From Psychroserpens burtonensis DSM 12212 (lineage in GTDB: Bacteria > Bacteroidota > Bacteroidia > Flavobacteriales > Flavobacteriaceae): a stretch of 64,000 nucleotides of DNA. Below are positions 9,736 to 64,000 of the stretch, piece by piece. Each line of letters opens with the position of its first letter. The first letter of the stretch is position 1. The translations under genes were made by a program, and so were the position numbers. The notes under the pieces are model-generated. The model did not search any database, had not been told where the DNA came from, and worked only from the letters and a program-made list of their open reading frames with translations. The stretch covers positions 103,264 to 167,263 of the forward strand of contig NZ_AUDE01000012.1 of NCBI RefSeq assembly GCF_000425305.1, given 5' to 3'.

Positions 9736-9748
9736 AAATAAGATTATC

Positions 9749-9799
9749 AAAACCAACCAAAAACTAAAATACTATTTAGTTTTTGGTTGGTTTTTTTTC
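9749..9799 (+). terminator. Long-stem terminator after paralog 1
   Basis: A 20-bp perfect stem (AAAACCAACCAAAAACTAAA, loop ATACTA, and its complement) followed by TTTT. Unusually long and A-T rich with G-C in the outer half. Confidence 0.85.
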
Positions 9800-9834
9800 T
9801 TATACAGAGCTTTTATGTTTTCTGAAATTTAATT

Positions 9835-10437
9835 ATGAAAAACTTATTTTTTACAATATCAGTATTACTTTTAGCTTTATCATGTAAAGCACAAAGCCCA
9901 GTTTTAGCTTTAGACACATATTATCACGAAATACCTGACGGAGCATACGTCAAAGATCTAAATAACGAATTAAATAAATTTGTTGGCACATGGCTGTTTA
10001 CTAATGGTACAACTTCATTTACTTTAGTTTTACAAAAACATGAGCAAACGTTCAATGATGATTATTATCAAGACTATTTAGTTGGAGAGTATGCCTATGT
10101 AGGTAATGGGTTAACAATAGTAAATACAATACCTACCTTAAACAACACCCAACTTAGTTTGGATGATAGAAACATTGGAGGGAGATATGTAGTCAAAGGA
10201 CCAGACCATAATTGTACTGACTGCTTAGCTAATGAAAGACGAATTGATTTATATTTTTCAGACCCAAATCGAGAATATCTATCTACAGGCATTGTTCTTC
10301 GTTATTTAGTCAATGAAAATAATCCAGAAAAAATTACTTCGACTATTTATGTTGTTGGCAATGTGATGTTACCTTACGAAGGTGCTTCGTCTTCACCTAG
10401 TGTGCCTTATGGCACTTATTTGATGGAGAAACAATAA
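9835..10437 (+). CDS. Tandem lipoprotein paralog 2 of 4
   Basis: 200 residues; the first 22 (signal peptide plus LSCKAQSP) are identical to paralog 4. Same architecture: AYVKDLNNELNKFVGTW, YQDYLVGEYAYV, CTDCLANERR, then MLPYEGASSSP and VPYGTYLMEKQ. The CxxC pair around residue 125 is kept in all copies and might form a disulfide or bind metal. A terminator precedes and follows it, so it has its own promoter. Predicted outer-membrane or periplasmic lipoprotein; function unknown. Confidence 0.8.
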   Translation: MKNLFFTISVLLLALSCKAQSPVLALDTYYHEIPDGAYVKDLNNELNKFVGTWLFTNGTTSFTLVLQKHEQTFNDDYYQDYLVGEYAYVGNGLTIVNTIPTLNNTQLSLDDRNIGGRYVVKGPDHNCTDCLANERRIDLYFSDPNREYLSTGIVLRYLVNENNPEKITSTIYVVGNVMLPYEGASSSPSVPYGTYLMEKQ

Positions 10438-10457
10438 GTAATTTATATTAATACTCT

Positions 10458-10491
10458 AAAAACCTCTAAATTTTAATTTGAAGGTTTTTTG
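10458..10491 (+). terminator. Terminator after paralog 2
   Basis: AAAACCT...AAATT/AATTT...AGGTTTTTT hairpin with a few internal mismatches and a T-run. It is a decayed version of the one after paralog 3, which shows the spacer was duplicated with the gene. Confidence 0.7.
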
Positions 10492-10528
10492 TTTTGCATA
10501 GAGTTCTTATACTAGTTGACATCTAATT

Positions 10529-11164
10529 ATGAAAAACTTATTTTTTGCCATATTATTCTTACTGCTCGCATTATCATGTAAAGCGCAAAGTCCAATTTTA
10601 TCTTTGGACACTTATGAACATCAGATACCAGATAATGCTTATGTTAAAGATTTAAATAACGAATTGAACAAATTTGCTGGCACATGGATTTTTAGCCAAA
10701 ATAACATAACATTTACAATAACTTTACAAAAACAAGAACAAACTTTCAATGGTGATTATTATGAAGATTATATCATTGGAGAATATGCCTATTTGATTAA
10801 TACTTTAGAGATAATAAATACACTATCTTCTCTACAGGAAGCAAATGCAACGAATAATTCGCAAACTAATGAGAATATAATCGTATATTTAAATATTAGA
10901 AATATTGGTGGCAGGTATTTAGAAAACGGACAAGATTCTGGTTGTAATGATTGCTCAGAAAACGAAAGAGTTTTGGAATTATATTTAGTTGATCCAGATC
11001 GAAAGTATCTATCAACTTCATTAATTTTACGTTATTTAGTTAATGAAAATAATCCTGAAAAAATGACTGCAACAATTCGTGCAAGAACTGGAGTTGCAGT
11101 TCCTATAGATGGCTTCACCTCACCTCGTGTGCCATATGGCACTTATTTAATGGAGAAACAATAA
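10529..11164 (+). CDS. Tandem lipoprotein paralog 3 of 4
   Basis: 211 residues, longest of the set because of an extra ~12 residues after SSLQEANATNNSQ (about 105-125), in a loop that also varies among the other copies. Signal peptide with lipobox ALSC, CNDCSENERVLE, and the common VPYGTYLMEKQ end. The residues before that end (AVPIDGFTSP) differ from copies 2 and 4. The upstream spacer is nearly identical to the one before paralog 4 (GTTTTGCATAGAGTTCTTAT and following), so the two units arose by a recent tandem duplication. Confidence 0.8.
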   Translation: MKNLFFAILFLLLALSCKAQSPILSLDTYEHQIPDNAYVKDLNNELNKFAGTWIFSQNNITFTITLQKQEQTFNGDYYEDYIIGEYAYLINTLEIINTLSSLQEANATNNSQTNENIIVYLNIRNIGGRYLENGQDSGCNDCSENERVLELYLVDPDRKYLSTSLILRYLVNENNPEKMTATIRARTGVAVPIDGFTSPRVPYGTYLMEKQ

Positions 11165-11186
11165 ATAAATATTAATTAGAAATTTC

Positions 11187-11218
11187 AAAACCTCTAAATT
11201 TTATTTTAGAGGTTTTTT
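11187..11218 (+). terminator. Terminator after paralog 3
   Basis: AAAACCTCTAAA, 7-base loop, TTTAGAGGTTTTTT: 12-bp stem with T-run. The core CCTCTAAA...TTTAGAGG is the same as in the metK terminator at 7224-7254. Confidence 0.85.
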
Positions 11219-11256
11219 GTTTTGCATAGAGTTCTTATATTAGTTCACATATAATT

Positions 11257-11856
11257 ATGAAAAACTTATTTTTTACAATATCAGTATTACTTTTAGCTTT
11301 ATCATGTAAAGCACAAAGTCCAATAGTTCCATTAGACACTTATATTCACGAAATAGCAGATAATTCTTATGTAAAAGATATAGACAATGAATTAAATAAA
11401 TTTATTGGCACATGGGTTTTTAGTGATGGGAATTCTTCTTTTACTTTAGTGTTACAAAAGCAAATACAAACCTTTAACGATGATTATTACGAAGATTATA
11501 TGATTGGAGAATACTCATACAGCATAAATGGACTTACAGTTGTTAATACAATCCCATTACTTAATAGTACAAATTTAAATCTGCAAAGAAATATTGGTGG
11601 TAGATATGTTGTCAAGGGAGCAGACCATAATTGTCCAGCCTGCCTACCTAACGAAAGACGAATTGACATGTATTTTTCAGATCCAAACCGAAAATATTTA
11701 TCAACAGGACTAGTGTTACGTTATTTAGTTAATCAAAGTAACCCAGAAAAAATCACTGCAACCATTTACGTTGTTGGTAATGTAATGCTACCTTATGAAG
11801 GTGCTTCATCTTCACCTCGTGTCCCTTATGGTACTTATTTAATGGAGAAGCAGTAA
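11257..11856 (+). CDS. Tandem lipoprotein paralog 4 of 4
   Basis: 199 residues with the same signal peptide as paralog 2 and the same C-terminal third (TIYVVGNVMLPYEGASSSP, then VPYGTYLMEKQ), so copies 2 and 4 are the closest pair and copy 3 lies between them. The mid-protein pair is CPAC here (CTDC in copy 2). No hairpin terminator follows directly; instead, 54 bases downstream lies a remnant of a metK 3' end. Function unknown, as for the others. Confidence 0.8.
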   Translation: MKNLFFTISVLLLALSCKAQSPIVPLDTYIHEIADNSYVKDIDNELNKFIGTWVFSDGNSSFTLVLQKQIQTFNDDYYEDYMIGEYSYSINGLTVVNTIPLLNSTNLNLQRNIGGRYVVKGADHNCPACLPNERRIDMYFSDPNRKYLSTGLVLRYLVNQSNPEKITATIYVVGNVMLPYEGASSSPRVPYGTYLMEKQ

Positions 11857-50917: not shown

Positions 50918-52207
50918 CTACCTTTTAACGATCTTAAGAGTTTGAACTGTTGTACCTGTTTTTATTTTTAAAAAATACACTCCAAAACTAATAAAAGAGG
51001 TGTCAATTGTAGTATTGTCATTTACTTTAATAGGTATCATTTTCCCTAAACAATCATAAAGCTTTAGGTCTATTAAGTCGGTTTGAGAACTTATTTGTAT
51101 CTGATCTAAAAAAGGATTTGGAAATACCTCTACTTTAGCGATATCAAAATCGTCTACTGATAATGCACTACAAAGCGGATTAACTCCTACTAAAGATGTA
51201 AACACGCCAGTATCAATAGTCCAATTACGCCATTCGCCTCCACTACCAGTTTCCCAATCTGACAAATCGAAATAATTTACACCACTCTCAGTTCCTGGAA
51301 CTTTATACACTTTAATGGCTTCATTATTTCTGTCCCAAGTCAATGGCGAACCTGAAACACAAGTTTCTGGTTCAAAATCTGTCGTACAATTAGCTTGTAT
51401 AAAATATGCAAATTCATCATAAGCAGGATATTCTCCATAGACATAAGCTTTACCATCTGGTTCTACACAAACTGCAGTGTATTCGTTACAAGCAATCCCA
51501 AAAGAACGTATAGAATAATCTGTTGCAATTCTAGCTAACATGACGCTATGTCTTGCTCTTCTATCTGGATCATCATAATGAGAGTCTGTGATAACATTAT
51601 TTAAATAAGGAATATCCAAAAAATCATCATGACCTATTGTTACTCTTGGGTGATAAGGATTACTTAAAGCTACTGCATTAGTGAGTGTACCATATTGAGC
51701 AGAAAAATAATTACCTCCTAAGATTGCTAAACCAGCACTTGTACCGCCAATAACACCTTGTTTTACATTAACAAAATTATTAAGTGCGTCTTCCATAGCA
51801 TTATCTTTAAAATAGCTTACATAATCATATTGATCGCCACCTGCAAACCAAATTGCTTCTGCATTTGCCACTCTTTGCAACACGTAAGGATCTGCAGCAC
51901 CAGCTGCATTATCTATTACAAATGTGGTCACAGAATTAATTGTAACACCCAAATCGGTATAAAAATAATTATTGTAACCATCACTTCCTGAAGCTCTCAA
52001 CACGACAACATCACCACCGTTTGCTTTGTTTAAAAACCAAATCATGGCATCCTCTTGTTCTGTAGCTCCTCCCATTAGACATACGCCTGGTTGCTGATTA
52101 GTGGTCACGTCTGTTGTGCTTCCTGTTTGGTATTCTGTATAATTTTGAGCGAAACAGAATTGGATACTCAAAAATAATAGTAGTGTAATTTTTTTCATAG
52201 CTTTCAT
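50918..52207 (-). CDS. T9SS-secreted S51 peptidase (cyanophycinase-like)
   Basis: 429 residues (or 426 from the next ATG at 52198). Signal peptide to about FCFAQ21. The S51 peptidase domain has GGDQ (123-126), the nucleophile Ser157 in GGTSAGL, DSHYDDPDRRAR (208-219) and GIACNEYTAV with Glu242. GGDQ and DxH are marks of cyanophycinase rather than dipeptidase E. The last ~75 residues (VEVFPNPFLDQIQI ... GVYFLKI ... LKIVKR) are a type A T9SS sorting domain, so the enzyme should be secreted or attached to the cell surface. Last gene of the susC operon, 3 bases after the M20 gene. Cleavage of a beta-aspartyl polymer is inferred. Confidence 0.88.
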   Translation of the reverse strand: MKAMKKITLLLFLSIQFCFAQNYTEYQTGSTTDVTTNQQPGVCLMGGATEQEDAMIWFLNKANGGDVVVLRASGSDGYNNYFYTDLGVTINSVTTFVIDNAAGAADPYVLQRVANAEAIWFAGGDQYDYVSYFKDNAMEDALNNFVNVKQGVIGGTSAGLAILGGNYFSAQYGTLTNAVALSNPYHPRVTIGHDDFLDIPYLNNVITDSHYDDPDRRARHSVMLARIATDYSIRSFGIACNEYTAVCVEPDGKAYVYGEYPAYDEFAYFIQANCTTDFEPETCVSGSPLTWDRNNEAIKVYKVPGTESGVNYFDLSDWETGSGGEWRNWTIDTGVFTSLVGVNPLCSALSVDDFDIAKVEVFPNPFLDQIQISSQTDLIDLKLYDCLGKMIPIKVNDNTTIDTSFISFGVYFLKIKTGTTVQTLKIVKR

Positions 52208-52210
52208 TTT

Positions 52211-53533
52211 TTATAATTTGGAATTGACTAACCGGTACATTAATACTGCAGTAATTTTAGCCTGTGTTGCCACTGTATTCAAATTCCCTGTTTCATTTAT
52301 AGTATGATCTCCACCACCTCCTGTGAGTCCTAGTCCGTCGATTGCCATATCGACATATTCTGAAGTAAACGAAATATCTGCAGCTCCAGCATTTCTAGGG
52401 TTTACAGCGGTTACTGATCCAAACCCTAAATCCTGGCTTACAGAATTAAAATATTCTAATAACTTTAAATTCCCCTCTGTTAAGGTTAAAGGCGGATAAG
52501 CGCCTTCACCAAAGATAAGCTCTGCGGAGGTTTTAGAATAGTTCTCTGAAACAATTTTTTTCATGGTCGCCTTTGCTTGTATAAGTTGGCTTAAAGACAC
52601 CGCTCTTAAATCACCTCTAACACTAGCTTCTTGAGACACGACATTAGATTTCCCAAAAGCATGACCTCCAGTGCCGTCTGAACCTGGCTTTAAAGTTGTA
52701 CCACCAATAATGTAACCTGGATTAAACGTTAAATCTTTCTCTTTAGCGAGTTGCACGTAGAATTCATTCAAAATTCTTGAAGATTCATAGATCGCTCCTG
52801 CTCCAATATCTTTAGTAAAAATTTGAGAGGAATGTGCTGGTTCACCTGTCACTTTTAGCTCCCAATCTGCAGAACCTCGTCGAGATGCTACAATGGTTTT
52901 TGGATTATTATCACCATTTTCAAAACCTAAAGCGATATCTGCACGCTTAGCCGCATCGATCAAATCTTTTTTAGACAACCCAATTGGATTTCCACTTTTT
53001 TCTTCGTCGCCAGTCATTACTATTTCTATAGACATGTCGTCTAAAACACCAGCATCTTTGAGTGCTTGCATTACTAAAATGATGATGACATCACCACCTT
53101 TCATATCTGCAACTCCAGGACCTTTCATTATAGAATCATTAAGCATGGTGTATTCTTGTAACGGACTTTCCAACTCAAAAACAGTATCTAAATGACCAAT
53201 TAAGAGAAATTTTGGACCTTTTTTACCTTTTCTCGTGGCTATTAAATGACCTGCTCTACCATAAGCTTCTCCATTAGTAAGTACTGTTTTAAAACCCAAT
53301 TTATCGAGTTCCTTTTGAAAAAGACTTCCTACAGCTCTAACCCCTTCAAAATTCATAGTACCACTATTCATATTGACTGCTGTTTTAATGAGCTCAATAG
53401 CACTTTCTGTATGCTTGTCTACCGCTTTCACAATGTTGCTCTCCTCTGTATTGTTTTGCGAAAAACCTAAAAGCGAAAAGCAAAAAAGCACTATAAGAAC
53501 GATACTTTTATTATTAAATTTTAAAATCATCAT
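52211..53533 (-). CDS. M20 family metallopeptidase, periplasmic
   Basis: 440 residues with a signal peptide (hydrophobic 8-24, ending FSQ). The two-zinc site is complete: GHLDTV (His114, Asp116), GVADMKGG (Asp143), TGDEEKSG (catalytic Glu177, Glu178), and the later Glu/Asp and His residues (NAGAADISF; GGGGDHTINE). The overall look is like carboxypeptidase G2 (M20A), which releases C-terminal acidic residues. In this operon it may split dipeptides such as beta-Asp-Arg released by the S51 enzymes; this is inference. It follows the periplasmic S51 gene by one base. Confidence 0.88.
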   Translation of the reverse strand: MMILKFNNKSIVLIVLFCFSLLGFSQNNTEESNIVKAVDKHTESAIELIKTAVNMNSGTMNFEGVRAVGSLFQKELDKLGFKTVLTNGEAYGRAGHLIATRKGKKGPKFLLIGHLDTVFELESPLQEYTMLNDSIMKGPGVADMKGGDVIIILVMQALKDAGVLDDMSIEIVMTGDEEKSGNPIGLSKKDLIDAAKRADIALGFENGDNNPKTIVASRRGSADWELKVTGEPAHSSQIFTKDIGAGAIYESSRILNEFYVQLAKEKDLTFNPGYIIGGTTLKPGSDGTGGHAFGKSNVVSQEASVRGDLRAVSLSQLIQAKATMKKIVSENYSKTSAELIFGEGAYPPLTLTEGNLKLLEYFNSVSQDLGFGSVTAVNPRNAGAADISFTSEYVDMAIDGLGLTGGGGDHTINETGNLNTVATQAKITAVLMYRLVNSKL

Positions 53534-53534
53534 A

Positions 53535-54380
53535 TTAATCTATTGTAAAGGTTTCTCCTGGCAAATAAATATTCAATAATATACCTTGCGCACCAATTTT
53601 ATCATTAAAAGTGTTTTTTGACTGTTCTGGATTTTTGAAAACAATCACTTGAGATTCGCCAACGACTTCCATCTGTTTGCCAGATACTAAAACTGCTGTA
53701 GACTCGTCTATACCAATACCTACTAATTGAGGATATTCAATTATAGCAGTTAATAAACGATTATACCTGCTTCGTTTTACAAAATGCTGATCTACAATAA
53801 TGGTCGTTATGAGCCCTAAGCCTGTTTTAGTTTCAATATTTTCAGATTCCAAATGTCTAAAAGTTGAAGCATATTCTGGGTGTTTTAACTCACTTCCTGT
53901 AATCATCATTTTACTCATAACTGCCGCTCCTGCGCTTGTTCCAGCGATTAAAGACCCGTTTTTATAAGCGTCGTGAATGGCTTTTTCAATGTCTGTTCCT
54001 CCTACAATATCCATAAATCTATTTTGATCCCCTCCAGAAATATAGATCAATTTTGCATTTCTAATAGAATCTAGTTTTGAAGCTTTTAATTCTTCAAGTT
54101 TAACAAAATTCAACCCATAGATATTAGTAACACCTTGTTTATAAAATTGACTAGTTGCATAATACGCCGAAGAATCAGGCTCTGAACTTGACATTGGCAA
54201 AACAACTCCGTAACCTTCCTTATCAATTCCCGATTCTTTAACCATACGATCTAGCATAGATGCTGGTCTTGAACCACCACCTATAATAAATAGTTTTCCT
54301 TTTATGTCAAAATTTTGAGCCGAACTTTGAAATGCAAGCCCAAAAAACAAACTAAATATAATTAACCTTCTCAATATCAT
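53535..54380 (-). CDS. Cyanophycinase-like S51 peptidase, periplasmic
   Basis: 281 residues with a signal peptide (to about SSAQ22) and no T9SS tag. All landmark residues of cyanophycinase are seen: ISGGDQ with Gln119, AGTSAGAA with Ser149, VDQHFVKRSRYNRLL (Asp197, His199) and GIGIDESTAV with Glu226. Cyanophycinase cuts multi-L-arginyl-poly-L-aspartate into beta-Asp-Arg dipeptides by serine catalysis. The length matches the single-domain enzymes. One base separates it from the genes on either side. The true substrate is unproven; other beta-linked aspartyl peptides are possible. Confidence 0.9.
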   Translation of the reverse strand: MILRRLIIFSLFFGLAFQSSAQNFDIKGKLFIIGGGSRPASMLDRMVKESGIDKEGYGVVLPMSSSEPDSSAYYATSQFYKQGVTNIYGLNFVKLEELKASKLDSIRNAKLIYISGGDQNRFMDIVGGTDIEKAIHDAYKNGSLIAGTSAGAAVMSKMMITGSELKHPEYASTFRHLESENIETKTGLGLITTIIVDQHFVKRSRYNRLLTAIIEYPQLVGIGIDESTAVLVSGKQMEVVGESQVIVFKNPEQSKNTFNDKIGAQGILLNIYLPGETFTID

Positions 54381-54381
54381 A

Positions 54382-55515
54382 CTATTCTAATTCACCGATA
54401 ACAATTCCTCTAGTATCGGCTGAATGTGTAAACCATGCTTCTGGACTAGAGCCGTCTAAATTTGCTCTCATCATCACATCTGTGCTGCGATCTCCCCAAT
54501 AAATTTTATTCTCATTGGCATCATAACCTATGCCATAAACCACTCTTCCAATATTCACAGCAATTGTAGAAATATTAGTCCCGTCTAAATCTGCAGATTT
54601 TAATCGTACATCTCCAGAAGCGACATACTCATCGTAAAAGATTCGATCACCAATAACCAACATACTTCCTCCTTCAATAACTGGGATCAATTCAGATTCG
54701 CCAGTGCCATCTAAATTCTTTACCCAAACGCCTCCATTATAGTTCACCCAATAGAGCTTTCTATTGACTAAATCTATGGAAAGTCCGTCTGGATCATTAG
54801 ATTGTCCAGTCACAAAATCTTCGACTTGATTCACGTCAGTATCATCAATATTTCCTCTTTGAATTCCTGAACTCGTATCCCAATAAATTTGATTTTCTTC
54901 ATAGTCAATAGTCATCCCATTTGGTTGATCGACACCTGTTCTAAACTCTTCAAAATTACTACCATCTAAATTAGATCTGTAAATCTTATCTGCACCATAA
55001 TCACTAATATAAAGTTTGCTATTTACATTATCAATAACCATCCCGTAAGACGATTGTGCTACGACTCCATTTACAGTTGTAAAAATTGGTGCTTGCGTGT
55101 TTATAAGTCCTTGATACACTTGTGCGCCATCAGTAAAATAAATAGGAACTCCCGTTGCATTAGGATCTTTAATAACCACTGTTTTTGTGATCTCATTTAT
55201 TTCTAGAGACTCAGATGTTGTCACTACCAAATTCACGGTGTAAGCCCCTGACTCAGTATATAAATAAGTTGGGTTTTCTTCTGAGGTGGATTCTCCATCA
55301 CCAAAATTCCAGTAATACGTGGCAGTACCTACATTACCTGGCACAATAGAATTGTTTGTAAACGTAACGGTTGCCGGCGCAAACTCATCATTATCTATTA
55401 CAAAAGCAAATTCGGGTACTGTACTGGCTGGTGGCACTGGAAAATCATCATCGGAACACGACTGAAACATTCCAACCGTTAACAATATCGCAATTATATA
55501 AATTAAATTCTTCAT
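54382..55515 (-). CDS. PKD + YWTD-propeller lipoprotein A
   Basis: 377 residues: lipobox MFQSC then SDDDF (acid-rich after Cys, as in surface-exported lipoproteins of Bacteroidota). One PKD domain (about 45-118; YYWNFGDGESTSEENPTYLY). Then a six-bladed propeller of LDL-receptor YWTD-like repeats (KLYISDYGADKIYRSNLDGS; KLYWVNYNGGVWVKNLDGTG; KIYWGDRSTDVMMRANLDGS). Such repeats bind rather than cut. It sits between SusD and the peptidases where surface substrate-binding lipoproteins (SusE/F type) are found in sugar loci. Paralogous to the next gene upstream. Confidence 0.8.
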   Translation of the reverse strand: MKNLIYIIAILLTVGMFQSCSDDDFPVPPASTVPEFAFVIDNDEFAPATVTFTNNSIVPGNVGTATYYWNFGDGESTSEENPTYLYTESGAYTVNLVVTTSESLEINEITKTVVIKDPNATGVPIYFTDGAQVYQGLINTQAPIFTTVNGVVAQSSYGMVIDNVNSKLYISDYGADKIYRSNLDGSNFEEFRTGVDQPNGMTIDYEENQIYWDTSSGIQRGNIDDTDVNQVEDFVTGQSNDPDGLSIDLVNRKLYWVNYNGGVWVKNLDGTGESELIPVIEGGSMLVIGDRIFYDEYVASGDVRLKSADLDGTNISTIAVNIGRVVYGIGYDANENKIYWGDRSTDVMMRANLDGSSPEAWFTHSADTRGIVIGELE

Positions 55516-55527
55516 TGTTCTAAACGT

Positions 55528-56874
55528 TTATTTTATTAAAGCAATTCCCCTTGGGCTTGCTATTCCTGTTCTTAACACTTGTCTGTCTGTACCATCTAAA
55601 TTAGCACTGTATAATTCTCCCGAGTCACGACCAGACCAATATAATTTGCCAGCTTCATGATCTATTTGCATCCCGTAAATCCGTGTCCCTTCAGCATCAA
55701 TAGTTTGAATATTAGTACCATCAAGATTAGCTACTTTTAGTAAATCATCATTTTGGTCGTCAAAATAAATTTTGTCATTTACGGTATCCACCAAAAGTGC
55801 GTATCCATAATTTCCTGTAATAATAACATTAGGATTTGTACCGTCTAAATTCACTTCATACACCTCTTCAATATTAACATCATAAACGTACATTTTACCA
55901 TTTTCAACATCTAAAGAAATGGCTCTCCAATTCACACCAGGCACTGAGAAAAACCCTATTTCAGGATTAGAACCATCTAAATTTGCTTTTGATACATTTC
56001 CATCATCATCAACCCAGTAAACTTTGTTTCCGTCAACATCTAGAGCAATCGCATAAGGATCACCAATATTTGTTGCAATCGCTTCAATTCCTGTTCCGTC
56101 CAGGTTCATTCTCCAGATATTTCCGAAGGGATACGTATCAAAATCACTAAAATATAATTTCTCATTAACGTCGTCATAAGCCATACCAACACCACCTTTA
56201 CCAACAGCGTTATAAACATCGCTTACAGCTCCTGTTCCGTCTAAAATTAGTTTTCTAACATACTCGTCACCTATGGCCATGTAATATACATTAGCTGGCG
56301 CTTCGGGTGCTTCACCGATAATGACATCTTTTGTAAATGTTTGTGAACCAAAAGCACTACTTGCGGTTAAACTTACCGTAAATGTTCCTGCAGTTGCGTA
56401 AGTAAACATTGGACTTTCCTCTGTTGATGTCGAGTTATCTGCATCTCCAAATTCCCAAGAATAGGTGTTTGCGCCTGCAGATGTGTTGACAAACTGAACT
56501 GGAATCGTTGCAATAAGATCTTCTTCGTTTTCTACGGAAAACGAACTTGCTGGAGTTACCGTAACCTCTAAGTTAGAAATTGTGGACCCTCCAGAACCTG
56601 TAGAAACCAAACTCACTAAAAAGACATTACTCGTTGCATATGTTTTTCTTGGTGAGACTTGATTTGACGTTGTACCATCTCCAAAACTCCATGCATAAGC
56701 AGTAGCGTTTTCAGAATTATTAGTAAACTGAATCTCCTCACCAACAGCAACTTGAGTTGCACTTGCAGTAAATTCTGCTTGAGATTGCGGTGGTAATACC
56801 TCATCTTCTTCACATGTGAAAAATGTAAAAGACAAAATCGCTATAAAAATGTAACTGAAAAATTTAGTGTTCAT
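55528..56874 (-). CDS. PKD2 + YWTD-propeller lipoprotein B
   Basis: 448 residues from ATG 56874 (MNTKFFSYIFIAIL); an ATG six codons upstream is less likely because it precedes the signal peptide. Lipobox TFFTC then EEDE. Two PKD domains (AYAWSFGDGTTSNQVSPRKT and TYSWEFGDADNSTSTEESP), then a YWTD-like propeller (KLYFSDFDTYPFGNIWRMNL; KVYWVDDDGNVSKANLDGSN; KLYWSGRDSGELYSANLDGT). A longer version of lipoprotein A with one more PKD domain. Predicted surface binding protein working with SusCD. Confidence 0.8.
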   Translation of the reverse strand: MNTKFFSYIFIAILSFTFFTCEEDEVLPPQSQAEFTASATQVAVGEEIQFTNNSENATAYAWSFGDGTTSNQVSPRKTYATSNVFLVSLVSTGSGGSTISNLEVTVTPASSFSVENEEDLIATIPVQFVNTSAGANTYSWEFGDADNSTSTEESPMFTYATAGTFTVSLTASSAFGSQTFTKDVIIGEAPEAPANVYYMAIGDEYVRKLILDGTGAVSDVYNAVGKGGVGMAYDDVNEKLYFSDFDTYPFGNIWRMNLDGTGIEAIATNIGDPYAIALDVDGNKVYWVDDDGNVSKANLDGSNPEIGFFSVPGVNWRAISLDVENGKMYVYDVNIEEVYEVNLDGTNPNVIITGNYGYALLVDTVNDKIYFDDQNDDLLKVANLDGTNIQTIDAEGTRIYGMQIDHEAGKLYWSGRDSGELYSANLDGTDRQVLRTGIASPRGIALIK

Positions 56875-56903
56875 AAGATGTGTTTTAATCATGATATTTA
56901 TTT

Positions 56904-58232
56904 TTAGTATCCTGGATTTTGAACCATTCCTGGACTGTTGTTAGTTTGTATTTCATCTAAAGGAATTGGGAAAAGCGTTTGATTAGGGCTATTGACATTT
57001 GGCAACAGGACTATGGCACGATCTGTTCTTACTAAATCAAACCAACGTTGACCTTCAAACGCAAATTCTAGTCGTCTTTCGTCTTCAATAATTCTGATTA
57101 ATTGCGGGATAGATGATTCCGTGGTTGGTTGCAAGCCTGCTCGCACTCTAATTTGGTTGATATCAAATTGAACCGATCCTGCGTTTGGTGCAGCCAAACT
57201 AGCTTCAGCTTCGGCTCTAATAAGATATAGATCTGCTAATCTCAAAATGATATAATTATCAGCTCCAAGACTTAAATCGTCGTATTTAATAGCATAGGCT
57301 TTATCACCTTCAAAAGCAATACTGCCTTCAAATCTTTCGTCGTCAGCCTCATAAGCATCCAATAAATCTTGTGAAGGTTCTACTTCACGTCGTCCATTTA
57401 ATGACTGCGGAAAATTATACTCTGCAATACGGTTTCTTTCCAATTGCGTAAATGCAATTTCGAAAATAGATTCTGAAGATTCGTCATCTGCAAATACATC
57501 ACTGTAATTTGATGGCAATGTATATCCGCCATTTGTGATCACATCTGAAGCCAATTCAATCGCTAACGCATAGTCTTGTTTGTACAAATATACTTTTGCT
57601 AACAATCCCTTAGCAGCAGCATTAGAGGCTCTAATTTTTACTCCTGACACAGGAAGAAATTCTACAGCGAAGTTTAAATCGTTTATGATTTGGCTGTACA
57701 CCTCTTCAACTGAATTTCGAGGCGCGTCCAAATTTGTAACGCCCACAGTGGGTCCTACTTTAATAGGAACACCTCCAAAATAGTTTAACAGATTAAAATG
57801 ATTTAAAGCTCTAATGAAATACAATTCTGCTAAGGCTTCATTTCTTTCTTGTTCTGTCATATCTGCAATGGTTGGCACTTTATCAATGACATTATTAGCG
57901 ACATTAATTCCGTCATACGCTAAACTCCAAATACCATCTACAGACCCATTTTCTGGCAAGATATTGTTATTATTAACTTCTGCATAAGAGCTTGCTGTTG
58001 CAGCGAGAGGATGCGATAGATTATCTGCAGCCAAATCTGAAAACAAACCAAACGTTCTTCCGTAGTAACTTAAACTCTGAAACGATGCATAAGCGCCCAA
58101 GATACCTTTATCAATATCTTCTTTCGTTTTAAACGCTTCTTCCGCAGAAATAGAATTTTGAGGTTCTACATCTAAAACATCGCACGATAATGCCGTGCAT
58201 AATATGACCATTATAAAAATTATCTTCTTCAT
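56904..58232 (-). CDS. SusD/RagB family outer-membrane lipoprotein
   Basis: 442 residues: lipobox TALSC, then DVLDVEPQNSIS, the normal mature start. TPR-like helices with LYFIRALNHFNLLNYFGGVP (about 143-162) and the C-terminal RLEFAFEGQRWFDLVRTD are diagnostic. SusD-like proteins form the lid over the SusC channel and hold the substrate. It begins 4 bases after susC. On the small side for the family (often 450-600). Confidence 0.95.
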   Translation of the reverse strand: MKKIIFIMVILCTALSCDVLDVEPQNSISAEEAFKTKEDIDKGILGAYASFQSLSYYGRTFGLFSDLAADNLSHPLAATASSYAEVNNNNILPENGSVDGIWSLAYDGINVANNVIDKVPTIADMTEQERNEALAELYFIRALNHFNLLNYFGGVPIKVGPTVGVTNLDAPRNSVEEVYSQIINDLNFAVEFLPVSGVKIRASNAAAKGLLAKVYLYKQDYALAIELASDVITNGGYTLPSNYSDVFADDESSESIFEIAFTQLERNRIAEYNFPQSLNGRREVEPSQDLLDAYEADDERFEGSIAFEGDKAYAIKYDDLSLGADNYIILRLADLYLIRAEAEASLAAPNAGSVQFDINQIRVRAGLQPTTESSIPQLIRIIEDERRLEFAFEGQRWFDLVRTDRAIVLLPNVNSPNQTLFPIPLDEIQTNNSPGMVQNPGY

Positions 58233-58236
58233 CTTT

Positions 58237-61200
58237 TTAAAATTTTAAATTAGCACCTAAAGTGATTGTTTGCGCTTGTGGATACGTAAAAAAGTCTGTA
58301 CCAATAACAGAATTGTCGTCACCTCTATAATTCACTTCTGGATCCAAACCTGTGTACTTTGTAAACGTGAGTAAGTTTTGTGCACTCACATACACACGCA
58401 CACTAGAAAACATTGTTTTCTCGAGTGTATTGTTACCAATCGTGTAACCTAATGTTACGTTTTTAACCCTCATATAAGAACCGTCTTCTATAAATCGGGA
58501 CGATACACGTTTATTTTGTGCAGATGCAATTGGATCTGTGGTTGCTCTAGGGATATCTGTAATATCTCCAGGTTGTTGCCAACGTCTTGTTACTGCTGCC
58601 AATTGATTATCACCGCCTTGCAAGGATTCTAAGAACAATCTAGAACCATTAAATACATCGTTACCATAAGACCCTTGTAAAAAGATGGTTAAATCAATCC
58701 CTTTATAAGTAAAATTATTTGTTAAACCGAATATAAAATCAGGATGCGGATTCCCAACAATCGTTCTATCTGCCGATGTTATTTGTCCGTCAAAATTAGT
58801 ATCTGCATACACTATATCGCCCGTTGATGGATCCACTCCTAAAGATTCATAGCTGTAGAAAATCCCAATAGGCTGACCTTCCATAATTCTGTTTCCACCA
58901 CGTCCAATATCATCTATTGGTTGTCCGTTATACAATTCTAATACCTCATTACGGTTACCAGAAATATTGAACTGTGTATTCCAAGTAAAATTATCCCCAA
59001 TAAAATTTTGTGTTTCTAAAGAGATCTCGATTCCTTTATTTTCAACTTTCCCTACATTTTCGGTAATTGATGAAAAACCAGAACTAGAAGGCAATGGTCT
59101 TCTCAGTAATAAATCGTTGGTTTGCTTGTTGTAGTAATCTGCAGTAAGTGTGATACGATCATTAAATAACCCTACGTTAAGCCCAATATTAAGTTGCGTT
59201 GTACTTTCCCATTTTAAGTCTGGGTTAGGAATATTACTTGGGAAAATTGCTGGTTGCCCACCGTAAGATCCATTTCCGTAGAGTTCTGAGAATAAAAACG
59301 GACTAATATCATCATTACCTGTAATACCATAACTCACTCTCACTTTAAGATCTGAAATGGTTTTTTGATTCTTTAAAAAGTTTTCTTCGGAAACGCGCCA
59401 TGCCACAGATGCTGCTGGAAAAAATCCAGTTTGGTTATTGGATCCAAATTTTGAAGACGTATCAAAACGACCTGTGATTGACGCGATATACTTATCGTCA
59501 AAATTATAATTTAAACGACCTAAATACGAACGTATCCCTTCGTCTGATGCACTTGCACTAGCTGAAACTATTGTTGCTGCAGAGTTGATATACTCTAAAT
59601 CGTCATCTGCAAAATCCTGACCTCTAATAAAGGATGACCTAAATTGGTATTTTTCAAAGGTGTAACCTACCAATGCATCAATCTTATGTTTGTTGAATTT
59701 CTTTTTGTACTTCAATAAGTTATTAGAAACGATATTAGAAACATTAGAGTAGGTTTCAAATCCTAAACCATTGAATTTGGCACCTTGAACAGTTTTAGTA
59801 GATTCATAAGCATGTTCTCTAAAATTCAAGAAATCTACTCCCCATTTTGAGGTAAAACTTAGATCCTCTATAATATCCCACTCCAAATAAACATTAGAAT
59901 TAGTTCTGTATGAAAAATTTTCATTAATAGTTTCATTTGCTATCGACACTGCATTAGAATAAGGACCGTCTTGATTGTAAGCCCCATCTTCATTAAAAAC
60001 CGGGAAAATTGCAGGTGTCGAAATACCATTTGGCAACGGTCCTTGTAGCGTTTGATCGCCTTCAACGCGATTCGTTTTAGCGTAGGTTAAACCTATACTT
60101 GCTCCAATTTTAACCTTGTCAGATAATTGATGATCCAAATTTAACCGCGTACTAATTCTTTCGTAATCCGTACCAATCAAAATACCTTCTTGTTCAAAAA
60201 ACGTTCCGCTCGCGAAAAACTGTGTTTTTTCAGATCCTCCTCTTGCAGACACTTCATAGCTACTTATTGGAGCTGTTCTAAAAATAACATCTTGCCAATC
60301 GGTATCGATTGTGATATTATTCATTTGTTCTTCGGTAAAAACAGTACTATTAGTAAGATCGTTTCTATAATCCATCCATTCCCTTGCGTTCAACATATCT
60401 AATTTATTCCAAGCACGTTGCATCCCAGAATAGACGTTAACACTCACCACAGATTTTTGCTGCTTACCACGTTTGGTTGTTATTAATACAATACCATTAG
60501 AACCTCTCGCTCCATAAATAGCAGTTGCAGAGGCATCTTTTAATATACTTATAGATTCTATATCACTTGGGTTTAAATCTGAAAGCGCACTTGAGCCTTG
60601 ACCCGAATAACCTATCTGTGCAAAATCACCTGTTGTCACAGGAATACCATCAATAATATAAAGTGGTTGATTAGAGCCACTAATGGAACTCAAACCACGA
60701 ATTCTCACTGACATTTCACCACCAGGAGTTCCAGAATTTTGCTGTACTTGCACACCAGCTGCCTGACCTTGAAGAATACCATCTACAGATGACACGGGTA
60801 AATCCTTAACTTGATTAGATTTAATAGAAGTTACAGCGTCGCTCAATAAAGCTTTTTTTTCTGTACCATAGCCAATAACTATAATTTCATCTAAGGCCGC
60901 ATTATCTGTAACCATTTGCACATCTATTGACGTACCAGTTATCTCAACTTCTTGAGGCAAAAAACCCAAATACGAAATGATTAGCGTCGTTGCATCATCA
61001 GGAACCGACAATTTATAATTACCATCAAAATCTGTAATAACACCTGTATTAGCTCCTTTAACCATGACTGTTGCCCCTACCAATGGCAGGCCTGTATCGT
61101 CCACAACTTTACCGGTAATTATTTTATTCTGCGGAGTACTTTTAGACTTATTAGCTGGTACTATAGGATTGATATTCTCCTTAATAACAACTTGCCTATC

Positions 61201-61533
61201 ATCTACTTTATAAGTTAAATTAGTACCTTCTAATGCAGTATCTAAAATTGTACTAAGTGTTGCGTTTTTAAGATTTAAAGACACGTTATATTTTAACACA
61301 TTATCTTTGTAAAAAAATATAAATTCGCTTTTACTCTGTATATCTTTAAATAATTCTTCTAAAGTTACATTGTTTACGTTTATATCTATTTTAGTCTGAG
61401 CATTTGAAGTATTTGCAAAAGCAGAACTTAAACCAATGGTTATTAATAATAGAAAGATTCTCATAATATTTACCAAATAGTATCTTAAAGACTTTACACT
61501 TTTAAAAACGTAAAGATTCCCATATTTATTCAT
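58237..61533 (-). CDS. SusC/RagA family TonB-linked outer-membrane transporter with STN domain
   Basis: 1098 residues. A long N-terminus and signal peptide (hydrophobic stretch ~25-40), an STN domain (about 47-117; VTLEELFKDIQSKSEFIFFY), a CarboxypepD-like domain (about 138-213; ITGKVVDDTGLPLVGATVMV), the plug (YGTEKKALLSDAVTSIK, LYIIDGIPV, ILKDASATAIYGARGSNGIV) and a 22-strand barrel to the end. The STN domain means that substrate entry is signalled to the FecR anti-sigma encoded next door. It imports oligomers of the locus substrate across the outer membrane with TonB energy. Confidence 0.96.
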   Translation of the reverse strand: MNKYGNLYVFKSVKSLRYYLVNIMRIFLLLITIGLSSAFANTSNAQTKIDINVNNVTLEELFKDIQSKSEFIFFYKDNVLKYNVSLNLKNATLSTILDTALEGTNLTYKVDDRQVVIKENINPIVPANKSKSTPQNKIITGKVVDDTGLPLVGATVMVKGANTGVITDFDGNYKLSVPDDATTLIISYLGFLPQEVEITGTSIDVQMVTDNAALDEIIVIGYGTEKKALLSDAVTSIKSNQVKDLPVSSVDGILQGQAAGVQVQQNSGTPGGEMSVRIRGLSSISGSNQPLYIIDGIPVTTGDFAQIGYSGQGSSALSDLNPSDIESISILKDASATAIYGARGSNGIVLITTKRGKQQKSVVSVNVYSGMQRAWNKLDMLNAREWMDYRNDLTNSTVFTEEQMNNITIDTDWQDVIFRTAPISSYEVSARGGSEKTQFFASGTFFEQEGILIGTDYERISTRLNLDHQLSDKVKIGASIGLTYAKTNRVEGDQTLQGPLPNGISTPAIFPVFNEDGAYNQDGPYSNAVSIANETINENFSYRTNSNVYLEWDIIEDLSFTSKWGVDFLNFREHAYESTKTVQGAKFNGLGFETYSNVSNIVSNNLLKYKKKFNKHKIDALVGYTFEKYQFRSSFIRGQDFADDDLEYINSAATIVSASASASDEGIRSYLGRLNYNFDDKYIASITGRFDTSSKFGSNNQTGFFPAASVAWRVSEENFLKNQKTISDLKVRVSYGITGNDDISPFLFSELYGNGSYGGQPAIFPSNIPNPDLKWESTTQLNIGLNVGLFNDRITLTADYYNKQTNDLLLRRPLPSSSGFSSITENVGKVENKGIEISLETQNFIGDNFTWNTQFNISGNRNEVLELYNGQPIDDIGRGGNRIMEGQPIGIFYSYESLGVDPSTGDIVYADTNFDGQITSADRTIVGNPHPDFIFGLTNNFTYKGIDLTIFLQGSYGNDVFNGSRLFLESLQGGDNQLAAVTRRWQQPGDITDIPRATTDPIASAQNKRVSSRFIEDGSYMRVKNVTLGYTIGNNTLEKTMFSSVRVYVSAQNLLTFTKYTGLDPEVNYRGDDNSVIGTDFFTYPQAQTITLGANLKF

Positions 61534-61589
61534 AATTTTGTTTTAGTGGTTAATATTGCTGTTAAATGCAGTTATGTTAATTTTTTAAG

Positions 61590-61622
61590 CTAGAAGGTGT
61601 TGGCGCATCTTCTAGTTTTTTA
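61590..61622 (+). terminator. Plus-oriented hairpin-T between fecR and susC
   Basis: CTAGAAGGTG-ttggcg-CATCTTCTAG then TTTTTTATT: a 10-bp stem with one G-U pair that pairs fully only in plus-strand RNA. All genes here are on the minus strand, so it would stop antisense transcription heading into fecR. On the minus strand it lacks a T-run. Confidence 0.55.
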
Positions 61623-61657
61623 TTACAATTTATTTTGCTTCATATTAGAGCGTTTTA

Positions 61658-62719
61658 TTAATTAATGATTAGCTGATTGTTATCTGTCATTTTATATGTA
61701 AACGGAGACGTTTCAGCCTGATTAATGATTTTTAAAACATGATCTAAATCTTCGTTTACGTCTAAATATCCTGAAAACATTTGGTTAGATAAATTTTCAT
61801 CATTGATAATGATATCTACATTATAATACCTTGATAGTTTTTTCATAATCGTTTTTAAAGCATCATTTTTAAAAACAAAAACACCATCTCGCCATGAAAA
61901 ATAAATTTCGACATCGACCGTAATTGTGTCGATACGTTTAGCCTTTTTGTTATAAGTAGCTAACGTATTTGGAGCTATTTTTAAATGCTTTTTAGAAGAA
62001 ATCAGGTTGTCATTCTTATAATGTATTTGAACACTTCCACTTTTAAGCACTGTGAATATAGAGTCGTCATCAGAATAATTACTCACATTAAATATTGTAC
62101 CTAATACTTCGATATCCTGGTTTTTTGATTTAACTATAAATGATTTTTTCTCATTATGAGTCACTTCAAAAATAGCTTCACCCTCCAGATATACTTCTCT
62201 TTTATCCTCTGAAAATATGGCAGGGAATATTAATTTTGAGCCAGAATTTAGCCAAACTTTACTACCATCGGATAAGACAATTTCTGAGCGCTTACCATAA
62301 GGAACAATTAATGTATTGTACACCACTTCACTTTGAGTCGAAAGCGCTTGACTTAAAAACTTTGAATTTCCAATAGTTACATTTTGACCATTATTAGAAT
62401 AGGTTATTGCTGAATCACTTTCTGAAATCTCAACACCTTCCTCGTTATTTAAAATAAGAGTTACCTCATTATGTTCTTCTTGAAGTTGCACTGAATTGAC
62501 AAAGGTTTTTATTGAAGAAACATCTTGTGTCATGTAATTAAAAATTCCCACTGAAAACAAAAGTACTATTGACGCTGCAGCAAAGCTCATCGCGTACTTT
62601 ACACGACGTTTTTTTTGCATATAGGTATAAACTGAGTTTGTAATTTTGTGTTTTAATTGAGCTTTCTCTTCTTTAGAGATCTCATCAAAATTCATTTTAT
62701 GCAAAGAATTATCTTTCAT
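61658..62719 (-). CDS. FecR-type anti-sigma factor
   Basis: 353 residues: cytoplasmic N-terminal ~60 residues that would bind the sigma factor, one membrane helix (about 63-81, YAMSFAAASIVLLFSVGIF), then the periplasmic FecR domain (LIVPYGKRSEIVLSDGSKVW, LNSGSKLIFP, VYLEGEAIFEV) and a C-terminal STN-like/DUF4974 domain (LKTIMKKLSRYYNVDIII). It relays the SusC STN signal to the ECF sigma. It is separated from the sigma gene by 113 bases that include a terminator. Confidence 0.94.
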   Translation of the reverse strand: MKDNSLHKMNFDEISKEEKAQLKHKITNSVYTYMQKKRRVKYAMSFAAASIVLLFSVGIFNYMTQDVSSIKTFVNSVQLQEEHNEVTLILNNEEGVEISESDSAITYSNNGQNVTIGNSKFLSQALSTQSEVVYNTLIVPYGKRSEIVLSDGSKVWLNSGSKLIFPAIFSEDKREVYLEGEAIFEVTHNEKKSFIVKSKNQDIEVLGTIFNVSNYSDDDSIFTVLKSGSVQIHYKNDNLISSKKHLKIAPNTLATYNKKAKRIDTITVDVEIYFSWRDGVFVFKNDALKTIMKKLSRYYNVDIIINDENLSNQMFSGYLDVNEDLDHVLKIINQAETSPFTYKMTDNNQLIIN

Positions 62720-62758
62720 CTATTTCTAAAACTATGTATTAAGAAGCACTGATTTAAA

Positions 62759-62786
62759 ATAAAAAAGACTTAAGGTCTTTTTTATA
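62759..62786 (-). terminator. Terminator between the sigma and fecR genes
   Basis: Read on the minus strand: AAAAAAGAC-cttaa-GTCTTTTTTATTTT. A 9-bp stem with T-run just after the ECF sigma gene, so fecR expression is either separate or by read-through. Confidence 0.75.
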
Positions 62787-62832
62787 ATAAGTCAAACATG
62801 TTGGAGGTATAGACAAAAAAATATGAGGAATT

Positions 62833-63417
62833 TTAATAAAAAAAATGAACCAGAAAGAACATATGCAATAACATGCTGTTTCTAAGCGACTTAATCGCCC
62901 TGTAAATAATAGTTCTTGAGGTTTGCACAGTGACATTCATGATTTTAGCAATGTCTTCGTAATCCTTTTCTTCATTAAATCTTAAAAACAAACCTTGCCT
63001 TTGCTTTTTACTTAACAAGTTTATTGATTTAGATAATAGATAAGCCCGTTCATTTTTAATCTCATTAACAATAATCTCTTCTTCTGCAGAAGCACTAAAA
63101 TCTTTTAAAAAAAGATTATTATCATCAATAGCTTGTATTTGCAACTTCCCTTTACCTTTTTTAAGAATTTGATTTTTCACTGACCGAAGTAAGTAGTACT
63201 TGACATTATTTGTACCTGCCAGCTTATTTCTATACTTATAAAGGTTTAGGAATACATCATGAATACTATCCATAACTTCTGTTTTATTGGAACAAAATTG
63301 AATACCATATCTAAATAAATCATCAATATAAAGGTCATATAGCTTCCCTAAAGCCTCAATATTTCCGTCTTTGAGTTTTGCCCACAAAAGAAGATCGATA
63401 CCTTTTTTAGCTTTCAA
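62833..63417 (-). CDS. ECF-type RNA polymerase sigma factor
   Basis: 194 residues. Region 2 (EALGKLYDLYIDDLFRYGIQ; DSIHDVFLNLYKYRN) and region 4 (LSKKQRQGLFLRFNEEKDYE; IAKIMNVTVQTSRTIIYRAI) of the Bacteroidota ECF group are complete. The assigned start is a TTG (63417); no ATG occurs near the expected N-terminus. The bases over it, TAACTTTG, fit the -7 promoter element, so the true start is uncertain, perhaps a few codons later. It should direct transcription of the susC operon when FecR is signalled. Confidence 0.92.
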   Translation of the reverse strand: MKAKKGIDLLLWAKLKDGNIEALGKLYDLYIDDLFRYGIQFCSNKTEVMDSIHDVFLNLYKYRNKLAGTNNVKYYLLRSVKNQILKKGKGKLQIQAIDDNNLFLKDFSASAEEEIIVNEIKNERAYLLSKSINLLSKKQRQGLFLRFNEEKDYEDIAKIMNVTVQTSRTIIYRAIKSLRNSMLLHMFFLVHFFY

Positions 63418-63593: not shown

Positions 63594-64000
63594 AGGGACT
63601 GACTCGGTACAATCTGTCTGTTTCAAGAAAGGTTCAAATTTCAAGACGTTCAAAAAATAGATAGGCGGAATTGGGGATCATTCCTAAAAGTTGTGTTTGA
63701 TAATTAAAAATAGATTCCGATTTTTGTTAAAAAGAGTATTTTGGACAACTATCAAGAACTGCTTAAGCTTATTCTTCCTGAATTTTTAATAACCCACTTC
63801 GATTTGATTAGCCATACCAAGAAAGATGAAGTAATGCATCTTTATTTTGAAGAACGCAATAGCGCCCCTAAAGAAGAAACTTCCCGAGAATTAATTGCAC
63901 ATGGGTTCCATAAACAAGCCACTATCCAAGACTTTCCATTAAGAGGTAATACCGTCTATTTGCATGTTAAACGACGTAGATGGTTAGATAAAACCACTAA
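63594..64000 (+). mobile_element. Left end of an ISAon1-like insertion sequence (runs off the window)
   Basis: The transposase N-terminal ORF at 63741 lies within an element whose left boundary is probably around GGGACTGACTCGGTACAATC (63595-63614). The other end is outside the window, so the terminal repeat cannot be confirmed. The ~170 bases before this, behind the sigma gene, are A/T-rich with nothing recognisable. Confidence 0.45.
63741..64000 (+). CDS. ISAon1-type transposase N-terminal region protein, 3' truncated by window
   Basis: Open frame from a TTG at 63741 (LDNYQELLKLILPEFLITHF) to the window end, 86 codons. The sequence with HLYFEERN, TIQDFPLRGNTVYLHVKRRR and WL matches the short N-terminal protein of ISAon1-like elements as I remember it, in which the transposase is split over two frames. 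There is no ATG. The rest of the transposase should follow beyond position 64000. Confidence 0.65.
   Translation, partial: MDNYQELLKLILPEFLITHFDLISHTKKDEVMHLYFEERNSAPKEETSRELIAHGFHKQATIQDFPLRGNTVYLHVKRRRWLDKTT

Follow-up and report, generated by a model that had tools for sequence, protein, structure and literature searches.

Nine genes on the minus strand, at positions 50918-63417 of a 64,000-nucleotide stretch of the genome of Psychroserpens burtonensis DSM 12212 (hereafter the window, whose end coincides with the end of contig C8), probably form a SusCD-type locus for the utilization of cyanophycin, an arginine-rich polymer in which cyanobacteria, and some other bacteria, store nitrogen. 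We put the probability of this reading at roughly 0.78, as evidence from residues, protein families and gene neighborhoods, all of it comparative, points the same way when taken together. In order of transcription, the genes encode an extracytoplasmic function (ECF) sigma factor, a FecR protein, a SusC transporter with an STN domain, a SusD lipoprotein, two lipoproteins with PKD and propeller domains, an S51 peptidase with an N-terminal signal sequence (here called S51p), an M20 metallopeptidase, and a last S51 peptidase that carries a tail of the type IX secretion system (T9SS; here called S51T9). Pfam and TIGR matches bear out each of the families, and the common strand, that a first-pass annotation of this DNA had assigned to the nine genes, and the comparisons agree with the substrate that it had proposed.

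A scheme for how the locus might work can be outlined. The cyanophycinase-like S51T9, predicted to be exported to the cell surface, would clip the polymer, and the pieces would be imported by SusC and SusD with the two propeller lipoproteins. In the periplasm, the signal-bearing S51p would release beta-Asp-Arg, which M20 would then split into aspartate and arginine. Binding of substrate might turn the operon on by trans-envelope control through the STN domain of SusC, FecR and the ECF sigma factor. Once imported, arginine and aspartate could rebuild the cell's own cyanophycin store, given that a cyanophycin synthetase is encoded in the genome. Gene order, protein families, export tags, key residues and the recurrence with isoaspartyl dipeptidases and an antiporter can be read from the sequences, whereas the substrate, the cell compartments and the sequence of steps are inferred, and the reaction assigned to M20 most of all.

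By sequence, S51p (53535-54380) is a cyanophycinase, with predicted hydrolysis of the polymer to beta-Asp-Arg and a predicted location in the periplasm. It scores 164.7 bits against the TIGR02069 cyanophycinase equivalog model (cut-off 126.6 bits), and the solved chains nearest to it are 7uqv (105 bits) and the Synechocystis cyanophycinase 3en0 (76 bits). Residues Q119, S149, D197, Q198, H199, R203, R205, R208 and E226 of S51p align with Q101, S132, D172, Q173, H174, R178, R180, R183 and E201 of Synechocystis CphB, so that all nine key residues are kept. We take His174 and Glu201 to be the correct CphB numbering for two of these, which is consistent with the alignment. A passage of PMC3235067, citing Law 2009, places Gln101, Asp172, Gln173, Arg178, Arg180 and Arg183 in the CphB pocket beside the catalytic Ser132; for CphE, it names Ser, His and Glu as the likely triad. 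In an alignment of 84 S51p sequences, two of which are pieces of one, the nine columns are uniform in every ungapped row (82 or 83 of 84). In a PepE-like S51 protein from the same genome, Ser, His and Glu are conserved but none of the six pocket residues is present. Because S51p has the pocket residues that this control loses, a peptidase E-like function for it was rejected. The motifs GGDQ, GTSAG and DxHF that the first-pass annotation had named for cyanophycinases are present in both S51 proteins, the last as DxH(F/Y). On a tree, S51p forms its own group beside the intracellular CphB proteins. In one case, the S51p of a contig titled Halorubrum sp. (L084) does not differ in any aligned column from the S51p of a Bacteroidales metagenome-assembled genome (MAG; L085), and the label is probably a binning error.

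The genes that accompany S51p elsewhere provide a second type of evidence. A scan of GTDB contigs with three S51p orthologues returned 198 relatives, the best 80 of which were examined; together with this genome and two others (G157 and G071), they make up 83 loci. Since these were selected by S51p, the counts describe the company that S51p keeps and not how common such loci are in nature. Neighboring genes were called by longest open reading frame and grouped into families by clustering, and most copies of IadA, IaaA and YfcC were assigned by cluster alone. Within 8 kb of S51p, SusC was found at 54 loci, SusD at 59, both at 53, and a cluster of PKD/propeller-type lipoproteins at 55; YfcC, of a basic-amino-acid antiporter family, was found at 34, M20 at 22, and the isoaspartyl dipeptidases IadA and IaaA at 16 and 8, respectively. 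Of the 17 members of the IadA cluster, four were tested and all four were confirmed (TIGR01975, 446-484 bits; cut-off 331). The identical nine-gene order occurs at 15 of the 83 loci including the window, or 14 of the 82 others, and the arrangement is thus not due to chance. It is known from Arcticiflavibacter, Winogradskyella, Polaribacter, Subsaximicrobium, Bizionia, Gelidibacter, Aequorivita and one Flavobacteriaceae MAG, and the closest named relatives at the locus are Flavobacteriaceae (Arcticiflavibacter luteus SusC, 86%).

Judged by its genes, the most telling locus for the likely substrate is that of a Bacteroidales MAG (L117), in which two propeller lipoproteins and S51p are followed by YfcC and IadA (462.8 bits), and in which SusC is 65% identical to the window protein and SusD 64% identical over a 329-amino-acid fragment. 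Likewise, SusCD, IaaA, S51p and YfcC stand together in G071, with an agmatine-deiminase-family gene on the opposite strand, and S51p lies beside SusCD in a Salinivirgaceae MAG (L093). Among 397 genomes of the family, eight have S51p (E <= 1e-50), four of them in the arrangement IaaA-S51p-YfcC and four with M20. Two genomes of the same genus (G045 and G693) gave no S51p match at this threshold, which makes the locus patchy.

It is the last step that appears to differ among these loci. YfcC, IadA and IaaA are found within 8 kb at none of the 22 M20 loci. For the 63 loci flanked by 4 kb or more in both directions, Fisher tests of M20 against the dipeptidases ([[23,20],[20,0]], 9e-5) and against YfcC ([[19,24],[20,0]], 1e-5) were rejected as proof and are taken as a pattern only, since M20 changes just four times on the S51p tree, which leaves two (starred branches) to four independent pairs. 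M20 seems to take the place that YfcC, the antiporter, together with IadA or IaaA has at other such loci. Signal sequences were judged by eye and by a crude hydropathy score, in which the lowest counted M20 has 2.08 and one IadA (L085, 2.13) would pass too; by this score, 21 of the 22 locus M20s have a signal-like N-terminus. At two loci that have no YfcC (L103 and L104), IaaA has such an N-terminus as well, and other IaaA and IadA proteins score lower except the IadA of L085. This hints that loci lacking the antiporter tend to have a dipeptidase in the periplasm.

The window M20 (52211-53533; Pfam M20 and M20_dimer) is a carboxypeptidase G2 (CPG2)-like protein with a signal sequence and a predicted periplasmic location, and we consider the chances about even that it is a beta-Asp-Arg dipeptidase. 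Its nearest solved chain is CPG2 (1cg2, 91 bits), with the poly(aspartate) hydrolase PahZ2 a weaker match (26 bits); its model (predicted local distance difference test score, pLDDT, 80.2) likewise has CPG2 as the closest fold and PahZ2 at rank 13. H114, D143, E177, E178, E205 and H410 are invariant in 16 aligned locus copies and occupy what we take to be the metal-ligand positions of CPG2. With its free carboxylate, beta-Asp-Arg belongs to the N-acyl amino acids, the type of substrate on which the M20 family acts; this fit is the entire chemical argument for its cleavage by M20. IadA (TIGR01975) and IaaA (NF007589) are not among the best 25 of the 27 family matches of M20; if M20 does cleave beta-Asp-Arg, the activity arose by convergence. 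On an M20 tree, the locus proteins of Flavobacteriaceae, of two Fulvivirgaceae and of L069 form one group (support 92, inner branch 99) apart from 28 other M20s, and that of L115 is a long branch outside it.

Most of the genomes searched that carry this form of the locus also encode a cyanophycin synthetase. On contig C9 of the P. burtonensis genome, an IaaA-type gene, cphB and cphA1 lie side by side (L006, 5952-11089), as they do in L042 and L043; cphA1 scores 1234.8 bits (cut-off 850) and the intracellular-type cphB 232.7 bits. With cphA1 present, the locus is not a scavenging cluster in a non-producer, and with an intracellular-type cyanophycinase and an IaaA-type protein also encoded, cyanobacteria need not be the sole source of the polymer. 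Genome-wide searches covered the genomes of 21 of the 22 M20 loci (L045 was left out) and of 28 of the 61 others; G744 and G725 agree with G202 and G205 in the coordinates and scores of cphA1, and they were therefore equated with the genomes of L049 and L052 and counted once. A cphA1 above the cut-off was found in 16 of the 21 M20-locus genomes (G000, G157 and G199-G217) versus 1 of the 28 with other forms, among which G222 and G223 have matches under it (722 and 691 bits). The Fisher value of 9e-8 for this association rests on one (starred) to four independent pairs and was rejected as proof because so few lineages are independent. In the family at large, cphA1 is present in 36 of 199 genomes. 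None of the 21 M20-locus genomes has IadA above the cut-off, although G203 contains one that is broken into two parts. According to a passage of PMC10206079, IadA or IaaA is found in only 22% of the Bacteroidota that have cphA1; set against this figure, the IaaA-type genes beside cphB and cphA1 in P. burtonensis, L042 and L043 suggest that such genes may be under-detected.

The third enzyme, S51T9 (50918-52207), is a divergent CphE-like protein and a predicted cell-surface cyanophycinase. Its export is suggested by the T9SS type A sorting tail (Por_Secre_tail, 43 bits; TIGR04183, 45.6 bits versus a cut-off of 23) and by SprA in the genome (2728 bits), the single gene searched of what we take to be the T9SS core. 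The first-pass annotation had treated both S51 proteins as candidate cyanophycinases, a view to be dropped if both fell outside that family and lacked its substrate-binding residues. S51p belongs to the family by score and by all nine residues, and S51T9 falls short by score and agrees in part, at seven of the nine residues. Its model (17 sequences, mean pLDDT 83.9) best matches 7uqv, 7uqw and 3en0 (E 3.6e-13 to 2e-11), with target-normalised TM-scores of 0.74-0.78 versus at most 0.65 for peptidase E chains. S51T9 thus appears from its model to have a cyanophycinase fold with a divergent sequence, resembling the family without being filed as a member. When rooted on the PepE-like protein, a tree of 41 rows puts S51T9 and the larger S51 proteins of other loci (about 650-720 amino acids) on one side (89/70) and S51p, CphB and the 6nqc fragment on the other (90/86). 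Such a larger S51 seems to replace S51T9 in L060, L061, L062, L090, L091, L095, L099, L100, L101, L107 and L112; the one tested, from L100, scores 100.8 bits with the cyanophycinase model (cut-off 126.6) and 20.9 with the T9SS tail model (cut-off 23). Also, a second S51T9 paralogue, 64% identical to that in the window, is encoded on contig C10 of the same genome (L007, 8340-9557), where it stands alone, with no SusCD or M20 nearby.

A number of observations weigh against the cyanophycin reading or against parts of it. SusC, SusD or both are missing within 8 kb at 30 of the 83 S51p loci, and at 20 of the 83 none of M20, YfcC, IadA and IaaA is found within that distance, in some cases through contig ends. 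Three IaaA proteins from the loci score 295-300 bits against a cut-off of 567, and four YfcC proteins 357-402 bits against a cut-off of 500, with no other family match at the same threshold for the proteins tested. To these can be added the small number of independent changes of M20 noted above. An M20 match (E <= 1e-50) is found in 44 of 395 genomes of a phylum sample, and of 20 non-locus neighborhoods (relatives at 48-57%) taken from the 42 other genomes with a match, 19 have no match to S51, SusCD, IadA, IaaA, YfcC or cphA/B; in the remaining one, a CphE-like S51 is present. Of the 397 family genomes, 6 have a locus-type M20 (69% or more), beside S51p in four; the other two (G692 and G097) have it without S51p, SusCD or cphA1. 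Finally, an Asparaginase_2 (PF01112) protein is present in 21 of 21 M20-locus genomes, and M20 as the substitute for a dipeptidase missing from the whole genome was therefore rejected. As an aside, in G097 (L211, 6458-11144) M20 is followed, as in L049 and L052, by genes for proteins of about 680 and 223 amino acids that look two-component-like by eye, which suggests that the rest of the locus has been lost there.

The most probable alternative is one that overlaps the cyanophycin reading: the locus would serve cyanophycin, M20 would have a side role, and the dipeptide would enter the cytoplasm to be cut by the IaaA-type protein encoded beside cphA and cphB. We regard this as a serious contender, if somewhat short of an even chance. 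The IaaA-type gene of P. burtonensis, the Asparaginase_2 proteins and the two genomes in which M20 persists outside the locus all speak for it. Against it stand the absence of YfcC from the 8-kb surroundings of all 22 M20 loci and the single base that separates M20 from S51p. Furthermore, M20 follows S51p even in L069, where SusCD is lacking and where the genome has no IadA above the cut-off and a sole Asparaginase_2 match of 224 bits.

A second alternative, also compatible in part with a cyanophycin locus, is that S51T9 is no cyanophycin enzyme but either serves in binding at the cell surface or is a peptidase with another specificity, which we consider rather unlikely. The protein lies under both curated cut-offs (TIGR02069, 53.2 versus 126.6 bits; Pfam S51, 19.3 versus 23.9 bits) and keeps seven of the nine key residues, with P214 at the position of R178 and S209 at that of Q173. 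Among 23 relatives, Arg178 is kept in only 11 and Arg180 in 21, and the Glu201 column holds E in 17, D in 5 and A in 1. However, Ser and His are invariant in all 23, as are Gln101, Asp172 and Arg183, and the fold match is to cyanophycinase. Asp can be the third residue of the triad in the S51 enzyme MccG, as stated in a passage of PMC9239234.

Less probable still is that the locus imports some other beta-aspartyl or cyanophycin-like polymer, for instance polyaspartate or a pseudo-cyanophycin (one that contains lysine or another), and that the S51 proteins and M20 are tuned to it. The closest solved relative of S51p, 7uqv, is titled 'pseudo-CphB' and has the same nine residues, so these residues do not settle the substrate or prove activity on cyanophycin, and the M20 family includes PahZ2, a poly(aspartic acid) hydrolase that matches the window M20 weakly in sequence and well in fold. 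Arguing for cyanophycin over this improbable alternative are the arginine-handling neighbors, with YfcC at 34 of the 83 loci and an agmatine-deiminase-family gene beside the L041 locus, and the score of S51p above the cyanophycinase cut-off. A general oligopeptide-uptake SusCD locus with recruited peptidases, in which the S51 proteins would be aspartyl dipeptidases or peptidase E-like, is very unlikely: the oligopeptide importer RagA is among the nearest solved relatives of the window SusC and M20 is a broad peptidase family, but the pocket residues of cyanophycinases are present in S51p and missing from the PepE-like control, isoaspartyl dipeptidases recur beside S51p, and the S51T9 model lies closer to cyanophycinase than to peptidase E.

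The remaining genes of the locus have predicted roles in regulation and uptake. The ECF sigma-70 factor (62833-63417, TTG start as called) matches Pfam Sigma70_r2/r4_2 and TIGR02937 (63.5 bits, cut-off 42.9), and the FecR-type anti-sigma factor (61658-62719) matches FecR and FecR_C above the cut-off; in G157 (L040, 16219-16799), where the rest of the operon is complete, the match to the sigma gene is divided between two frames, as a frameshift would cause. SusC (58237-61533), a SusC/RagA TonB-dependent outer-membrane transporter with an N-terminal STN domain (PF07660), scores 946 bits with TIGR04056 and adjoins the SusD-family lipoprotein (56904-58232; Pfam SusD_RagB and SusD-like_3), a predicted substrate lid, so that the two make up a SusCD nutrient-uptake pair. 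Solved-structure searches with SusC and SusD gave no clue to the ligand. The first propeller lipoprotein (55528-56892), a predicted surface substrate binder, has two PKD_4 stretches, a DUF5050 match (46 bits, cut-off 27) and an Ldl_recept_b-type match, which, if Ldl_recept_b is the YWTD repeat as we assume, fits the propeller assignment; it has a lipobox-like FTCEE by reading. The second (54382-55515) matches PKD_4 (55.2 bits) and, slightly under the cut-off of 27, DUF5050 (25.1 bits), and has a lipobox-like QSCSDDD by reading. From susC through the last gene, the gaps are 4, 11, 12, 1, 1 and 3 bases; the tight block described earlier thus stands, with a range of 1 to 12 bases and not 1 to about 30. 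The gap between the sigma and FecR genes is 113 bases and that between FecR and susC 124 bases. Elsewhere in the window, a plus-strand open frame divergent from the operon (63741-63998) reaches the contig end and has no Pfam match (E <= 1e-5), and four successive plus-strand open reading frames (9136-11856) encode paralogues of 199-211 amino acids that are 50-80% identical, the first of which, the one scanned, matches DUF6705.

There are several reasons why such a locus might be of interest. Taken across the phylum, the importers of these loci are related, and the enzyme that performs the last step seems to vary. Bacteria that encode both storage and scavenging of cyanophycin would widen the known sources and sinks of the polymer beyond cyanobacteria. 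More tentatively, and with a chance that we think falls well below even, M20 may represent a new family of periplasmic beta-Asp-Arg dipeptidases that replaces an inner-membrane antiporter and a cytoplasmic IadA or IaaA step, in bacteria that make cyanophycin, degrade foreign polymer or that of their siblings outside the inner membrane, and rebuild it inside. If this were true, heterotrophs would exchange stored nitrogen with one another and not with cyanobacteria alone. One or more isoaspartyl dipeptidases of Firmicutes and Bacteroidota are described in a passage of PMC10206079 as still undiscovered, and M20 offers a concrete, expressible candidate for the missing enzyme.

Many features of the locus have counterparts in known systems. 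Like Synechocystis CphB (3en0, 7uqw), S51p belongs to the same fold family and has the nine catalytic and pocket residues; unlike CphB, it has a signal sequence, and a separate intracellular-type CphB is encoded in the same genome. M20 resembles CPG2 and PahZ2 (7ljh) in sequence, fold and metal-ligand positions. However, its identity to CPG2 is 22-23% in the fold alignment, and its Y346 aligns with a CPG2 arginine, presumably the substrate-binding Arg324, so that the specificity of CPG2 is not transferable. S51T9 resembles CphE, the secreted cyanophycinases of Pseudomonas as described in a passage of PMC3235067, in being exported, in its Ser-His-Glu triad and in having a hydroxyl residue at the Q173 position; unlike CphE as described, it has a T9SS tail and no equivalent of Arg178.

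At the level of the locus, the 2017 study by Ben Hania and colleagues reportedly describes a transport complex homologous to polysaccharide utilization loci, which would make that system SusCD-like. The earlier statement that no SusCD locus was known for cyanophycin has to be given up, as a passage of PMC10206079 refers to the work of Ben Hania et al. (2017, doi 10.1111/1462-2920.13639) on such a utilization locus in a member of the Bacteroidetes that scavenges cyanobacteria, and mentions a further cluster in Flammeovirga. Cyanophycin has also been predicted as the substrate of a TonB-dependent transporter in Citromicrobium, according to a passage of PMC3400609. No description was found of M20 in such a locus or of its co-occurrence with cyanophycin synthesis, in a literature search that was not aimed at M20. 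The cyanophycinase gene clustered with a transporter that such loci have in the summary of PMC10206079 is present here as S51p with SusC and SusD in one block; iadA and iaaA are absent from the window locus, which has M20 instead and is therefore called a variant and not a plain member. Like the locus of Salinivirga cyanobacteriivorans L21-Spi-D4 (that of Ben Hania et al. 2017, as summarized in PMC10206079), it combines cyanophycinase genes with a transporter in a scavenging locus of the Bacteroidetes, and the Salinivirga S51 proteins, like those of the strain studied in PMC6243061, include one plain form and one with a Por secretion domain, as noted in a passage of the latter. Unlike the Salinivirga locus in that summary, which includes iadA, it has a signal-bearing M20 in place of that gene, no YfcC, and cphA1 in the genome. 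The kind of locus is thus known, and this one differs in its predicted last enzyme, M20, and in a host genome that carries cyanophycin synthesis genes.

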